Positions 2,870-3,001 of a stretch of DNA of 22,423 nt are shown here, piece by piece. A program made the position numbers and the translations under genes. Where the stretch lies: positions 1 through 22,423 of the IMG/VR virus record IMGVR_UViG_3300029258_001395; one strand, written 5' to 3'. This DNA comes from a virus. Numbering within the stretch: the first letter of the stretch is position 1; the number at the start of each line of letters is the position of its first letter. The notes under the pieces are model-generated. The model saw only the letters and a list, made by a program, of their open reading frames with translations. It had not been told where the DNA came from and did no database searches.

Positions 2870-2989
2870 ATCGTGATTTAGGGGGGGTTGACAGAGTTGA
2901 AAAAAGTGGTATGCTCGCAAGCATCGCGTTGCTGCTTCGCAGCACACGCAAGCGCAGCGACGCATACCAGAAACCCCGTTTATCACGAT
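2870..2989 (+). ncRNA. Strongly folded element, candidate structured RNA or origin fold
   Basis: Nested complementary segments are visible: ATCGTGAT (2870-2877) with ATCACGAT (2982-2989); GGGGTT (2884-2889) with AACCCC (2972-2977); TGGTATGC plus TCGC (2907-2918) with GCGA, one bulged base, GCATACCA (2957-2969); and TGCTGC (2930-2935) with GCAGCA (2939-2944) at the tip, extended by GCGT with ACGC. The promoter at 2888-2915 would start transcription inside the fold, so an RNA would contain only the inner and 3' part. The nature of the element is inference. Confidence 0.45.
2888..2915 (+). promoter_or_regulatory. Sigma70-like promoter, plus strand
   Basis: Consensus TTGACA (2888-2893), a 16-nt spacer, and TATGCT (2910-2915) predict a start near 2921-2923. 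The -10 box lies inside TGGTATGC, which recurs inverted at 2827-2834 and 2962-2969, so these may be operator copies. No plus-strand gene follows before 4250. Confidence 0.6.
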
Positions 2990-3001
2990 TTATCAGGCTC
3001 G

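Follow-up and report, generated by a model that had tools for sequence, protein, structure and literature searches.

What does a strong promoter-like sequence do when it is buried in a folded element that has no gene directly ahead of it? The question is raised by a virus record of 22,423 bases (IMG/VR IMGVR_UViG_3300029258_001395, positions 1 to 22,423; hereafter the window), whose large terminase is nearest, in the phage collection, to those of 023Pt_psg01 and the pelagiphages HTVC027P and HTVC023P (46-48% identity). Genes run leftward left of about 2150, structural genes run rightward from the small terminase subunit gene terS (4250-4849, plus strand, the first late gene; weak PHROG match, E 8e-4), and the element is located in the control region separating the two. 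We give roughly even odds (a probability of about 0.5) to the reading that it is an optional rightward promoter of the host sigma70 type, which would make an untranslated RNA. That RNA would cross palindromes and D1 repeats in the direction of the late operon and run antisense to a leftward gene at 3275-3877.

The original prediction placed a TTGACA-16-TATGCT promoter inside a nested inverted repeat, and its boxes, coordinates and fold are confirmed. The -35 box (TTGACA, 2888-2893, plus strand) stands just after a G-run (2881-2887), and the -10 box (TATGCT, 2910-2915, plus strand), which carries TG at the extended -10 position, matches the consensus at 4/6. Together they score 10/12 at a spacing of 16 nt, within the 15-19 nt of sigma70-type hexamers, and form the sole plus-strand site with at least 10/12 matches within window positions 1-5200; spacing predicts a transcription start at 2921-2923. 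The -10 box falls largely within an inner hairpin arm, TGGTATGC (2907-2914), partnered by GCATACCA (2962-2969), and around it the outer arms ATCGTGAT (2870-2877) and ATCACGAT (2982-2989) pair with each other, all on the plus strand. As had been claimed, the -10-box sequence recurs inverted on both sides: TGGTATGC begins at 2907 on the plus strand and at 2834 and 2969 on the minus strand, and these three copies are the only ones in the whole window. No counterpart of the third copy (2827-2834, minus strand) was noticed upstream of the -35 box in the nearest relative, L001.

The RNA fold of 2860-2999 reaches -54.3 kcal/mol (z -5.35, equalled by 0/200 shuffles); the minus strand gives z -6.06, and DNA parameters give z -5.53, matched by 0/200 shuffles. 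The RNA and DNA folds agree in placing the -35 box mostly in an unpaired bulge rather than in duplex. Among 200 dinucleotide shuffles of the whole window, a single one contained a promoter scoring 10/12 or better with its -10 box overlapping an 8-nt perfect inverted-repeat arm. The further claims that the plus strand is free of genes until 4250, and that the next gene on the other strand would be read antisense, are borne out. Nothing convincing precedes terS, which lies 1.3 kb from the promoter; a 290-aa plus-strand ORF (3029-3901) that overlaps the leftward gene is probably spurious. The leftward gene itself (3275-3877, minus strand) encodes 200 aa with no PHROG match and ends at an intrinsic terminator (3246-3267, a GC hairpin then T7 on the minus strand).

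A terminase search returned 80 loci, and in the nearest of them (L001, 80% terminase identity) the same element was located by syntenic position, not by a motif or promoter search. At L001 3714-3835 we found GGGGG-TTGACA-16-TACGCT, with TTACGCT paired with AGCGTAA, a C-run, and outer arms TACAACTCGTG/CACAAGTTGTA (z -3.86). When the 316-nt matching interval was shuffled, boxes with at least 11/12 matches and 16-nt spacing appeared in 2/5000 cases, and boxes plus arm in 0/5000. The leftward-gene proteins of the two phages are dissimilar (BLASTP E 1.8), and synteny therefore rests on terS/terL, the D1 repeats, the terminator and the layout. By hand count, box identity between the window and L001 is 11/12 while only 7/16 spacer positions agree; boxes kept as the spacer diverges, the pattern of a sigma70 promoter, hold for 3/12 of the control regions read. 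A second relative, L086, has the window's architecture at the matching position with different arm letters, and is 91% identical to L001 across the element.

Covariation among related phages had been proposed as a check, and boxes, spacing and pairing are kept in both L001 and L086. Beside and within the -10 box, pairs that are G-C, G-C and T-A in the window are T-A, T-A and C-G in L001, all double changes. The outer-arm letters differ among the window, L001 and a further carrier, L128, and the arms pair in each. L001 and L086 differ by 13 substitutions that leave the boxes, the -10 stem and the C-run unchanged and alter seven pairs; the predicted fold retains four of the seven and loses three. 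Of the three, one takes part in a compensatory change (A-T to C-G) within an alternative inner hairpin, and one outer-stem pair and one G-run pair are broken; between these two phages the element is conserved no better than its flanks.

A scan for GGGGTTGACA-N16-TAYGCT across 2.9 million viral contigs yielded 67 stretches, five of which carry the hairpin (L086, L095, L099, L103 and L128) and represent three distinct phages. L095 is the contig of L001 and L099 has the same sequence; L103 and L128 are counted as one phage because, in the 1.5 kb surrounding the element, they differ only in one 50-nt stretch. Unlike L001, this last pair was found through a pattern requiring the boxes. It belongs to a different phage, related to the window via the endolysin only, with a 13-bp arm and outer arms GTTGTGTCAG/CTGACACAAC (z -5.5). 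The -35 box and the G-run before it are identical in L001, L086 and L103, each of which has TACGCT as its -10 box. In L103 and L128 the promoter is flanked by a leftward gene on one side and, about 270 nt downstream, by small rightward ORFs that begin at 4751; this placement ahead of plus-strand genes supports a putative promoter function. The sample amounts to three independent lineages and is small.

Other searches added no carriers. The motif TTGACAAATGC is shared by 26 of the 67 stretches, and the other stretches without the hairpin are other contexts or ORFs; as a promoter it was rejected at L109 (263-300), the only annotated one of the 26, where its ATG starts an ORF (MPIRKYANAR...). Inspection of further motif stretches (n=14 and n=5) gave no added member, and a scan of the fetched loci for a promoter with its -10 box in an arm of at least 8 returned only the element loci and L058, which is without the G-run. 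Upstream of terL, a fold scan of 37 sequences (the window and 36 of the 80 loci) found many strong hairpins, and among those inspected such promoter boxes occur only in the window and L001. The looser pattern GGTTGACA-N16-TANGC is present as a single copy, at the element, in 3/20 whole records and is absent from 17, and its reversed control pattern occurs once in the 20; as the three positive records were preselected for the element, what is informative is the lack of a second copy and of any copy in the other 17. That a few relatives retain the arrangement with changed letters makes it look, from sequence comparison, less like a chance pattern than like a genuine, optional control element.

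Its optional status is evident from the 12 readable control regions, in which the interval between the origin-like and D1 repeats holds the element in three (the window, L001 and L086) and lacks it in nine (L012, L016, L020, L023, L025, L040, L077, L167 and G011). L165, whose contig begins past the interval, was left out of this count. The absence from L167 is informative because L001-type palindromes, D1 repeats and the terminator are all present there. Late transcription in these nine regions is therefore independent of the element. In G011 (L191 reverse strand, 5375 onward), the interval is occupied by a rightward ORF of 133 aa (MAKKCDYCGKR...) with CxxC pairs.

The surrounding repeats have a consistent layout. 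A+T-rich origin-like repeats (CACAAATGAACATAATA twice, AATGTTCA twice and an inverted GTTTTCAACGACTTACG) occupy window positions 2556-2720; AATGTTC/GAACATT repeats together with a GTAAGTNNTTGA motif recur in most relatives read (3230-3620 in L001), and the window version looks rearranged into an inverted duplicate. Downstream of the element, a repeat scan found three D1 repeats of the CTGTTTCGGTAACTGG type (3026-3062, 3084-3120 and 3189-3225, plus strand). In the relatives read, two to three D1 repeats with a consensus of about GCTNCTNNGGGAACTGGTATC follow the origin-like repeats (L012 4097-4250, L016 4258-4341, L023 4005-4130, L077 4255-4325 and, in reverse, L191 5584-5935), and they may be replication initiator or packaging sites. 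Of 21 stretches returned by a D1 motif scan, four lie in this control region (L086, L095, L165 and L167) and 17 are dissimilar.

The palindrome GTTATGCG-3-CGCATAAC (3002-3020, with further copies at 3067-3085, 3987-4005 and, imperfect, 3173-3191) has seven strict copies in the window (999, 1518, 2168, 2199, 3002, 3067 and 3987), all left of terS, besides imperfect ones at 189 and 3173; the count in 200 shuffled windows was 0. Of 81 sequences scanned (the window and the 80 loci, many too short to tell), 19 have a perfect palindrome in 3 to 10 copies, including L001, L008, L016, L019, L020, L023, L025, L040, L047, L052, L065, L076, L077 and L079; a match in L041 proved to be a TA microsatellite. 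Each phage keeps to one palindrome sequence, and most phages differ from one another in it. In the window and in G002 the copies keep to the early/control side, often between genes. G002 has 13 copies in 34.7 kb, all of them within 41627-59545; six were compared with ORFs (44913, 46498, 48071, 49335, 51505 and 59545), and every one falls between ORFs. By analogy, these phage-specific palindromes look like candidate dispersed operators of a putative fast-changing immunity repressor, similar to the stoperators of mycobacteriophages (PMC9283540 and PMC6550527). A fixed control-region layout with palindromes that change from phage to phage would make repressor specificity directly testable, and this by-product is possibly bigger than the promoter finding.

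The boxes, their spacing, the pairing and its conservation, the accessory distribution and the single copy per searched genome are observed features, from which we infer how a host-type promoter could operate here. It would fire rightward at about 2922 in the early/late control region, and its untranslated RNA would cross the D1 repeats and palindromes, with the leftward gene at 3275-3877 as its possible antisense target; if it read further, it would enter the late operon at terS. The first palindromes lie at about +80 and +145 relative to the predicted start, where a bound repressor could block elongation. The inverted repeat likely belongs to the control of the promoter and not to its RNA, because the RNA would start inside the hairpin and the arms are kept by paired changes. 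An RNA begun at about 2922 would lack the 5' arm and refold into an alternative hairpin, GCGUUGCUGC/GCAGCGACGC (2926-2963, plus strand; -22.1 kcal/mol and z -2.5 for 2922-3000), which leaves the conserved pairing no role in that transcript. The pairing would have to act on DNA, through strand state or protein sites, on an RNA from elsewhere, or through the RNA meeting its own promoter strand. The regulatory or antisense RNA of the original prediction gains from the conservation in L001 and L086 and from the position of the L103 and L128 elements upstream of plus-strand genes; its other suggestion, an origin with a transcribed primer, is not supported: the origin-like repeats persist where the element is missing, and the promoter points away from them. 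If the promoter works, phages related to abundant marine ones would have an optional switch within their early/late control region, and the element would be a compact system in which to test whether transcription is gated by a hairpin over a -10 box.

It is also possible, although with distinctly lower probability, that the inverted repeats are paired binding sites (operators or looping sites) for a phage regulator over an ordinary promoter, with folding incidental. The relatives own multi-copy operator-like palindromes, 6/8 positions agree between the arm GGTATGCT of the window and the palindrome half GTTATGCG, and the outer arms are centred near -50 and +65. Against this account, the spacing between the centres of paired arms differs among the window, L001 and L128 (55, 53 and 79 bp, respectively, by hand arithmetic), and the L001 arm and palindrome are less alike. 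We consider unlikely a bolder version of the promoter reading, a self-folding module that would travel from phage to phage, inserted optionally at a single site. Its -10 box, in a hairpin arm, would be switched by strand state, for which supercoiling, replication, or nascent RNA pairing with the exposed non-template -10 strand are candidates, and its insertion site would be the interval that separates the origin-like repeats from the D1 array, in which G011 has a small rightward gene instead.

Other accounts fit the data poorly. On the minus strand of the window, the stem is followed after two bases by T6, so that hairpin and ACTTTTTTC could form a backup leftward terminator for 3246-3267. We regard this as improbable, as the T-run is missing after the stem in L001 and L086, the leftward gene already has a strong terminator of its own at 3267-3246, and the conserved TTGACA and 16-nt spacing would be left unexplained. 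A chance promoter-like match in a G+C-rich repeat region, which a crude scan (5 promoter-like sites against 2.4 expected) might suggest, is very improbable given that L001 and L086 keep a fixed spacing while spacer letters differ. The least probable account is a replication element near the origin, either a primer made by RNA polymerase or a single-strand initiation hairpin. Origin-like repeats do adjoin the element, and its hairpin holds promoter boxes as do the single-strand promoters Frpo and the M13 minus origin; yet nine of the 12 control regions keep those repeats without it, the -35 box is mostly bulged, and the promoter is directed away from them. A replication primer or an essential origin part is not supported.

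By comparison with known systems, the element would work like a phage control-region promoter. Phage rightward or late sigma70 promoters of the lambda pR' type have long untranslated leaders, and the element shares with them a good -35 box and a gene-free leader ahead of the late operon, but it has its -10 box in an inverted-repeat arm and is dispensable among relatives, and no terminator or antiterminator gene is shown for it. The antisense and leader RNAs of phage control regions (lambda oop, P22 sar and P1 c4) likewise arise from short promoters opposing a gene, whereas the RNA here is putative, with neither a defined 3' end nor a demonstrated target. In single-strand promoters such as F Frpo and the M13 minus origin, -35 and -10 boxes both lie in the duplex of a folded single strand; the element too has promoter boxes in a hairpin-forming strand, but its stem holds only the -10 box, it is not tied to origin repeats, and no single-stranded stage is known. 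N4 virion RNA polymerase promoters, similar in placing a hairpin at a phage promoter, are short hairpins without the -35 and -10 boxes that the element has.

No known phage, plasmid or RNA-family match to the element region was found. In an Rfam 15 search no family fits it, and weak matches within 2780-3280 fall on the terminator; a host or mobile repeat was rejected, the one genome-collection match (L170) being likely chance. Narrow literature searches returned no description of such an element, and the words promoter, terminator, intergenic and integrase are absent from the main text of PMC9599517. The sole gathering-level Rfam match in the window lies elsewhere: a Mu-gpT-DE RNA (13435-13481, plus strand) that scores 50.5 bits against a gathering threshold of 49. 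It follows the major capsid gene, and the ORF between the two (12829-13392) reads as HNH endonuclease-like. Additionally, a non-coding block at window 4023-4093 (L001 5136-5206, 76% identical), about 160-230 bp before terS, carries CCACCGGGRGGC and TAGTAATACTA and is a candidate cos/pac site; contigs L166 and L169 end about 155-175 bases before it. A very long, near-perfect inverted repeat occurs in three other loci (L031 641-810, TAGCTATTTGGACAAGTTGGACAG...; L039 2291-2460; L042 about 831), where it lies about 1.15 kb before terL and is the strongest fold outlier.
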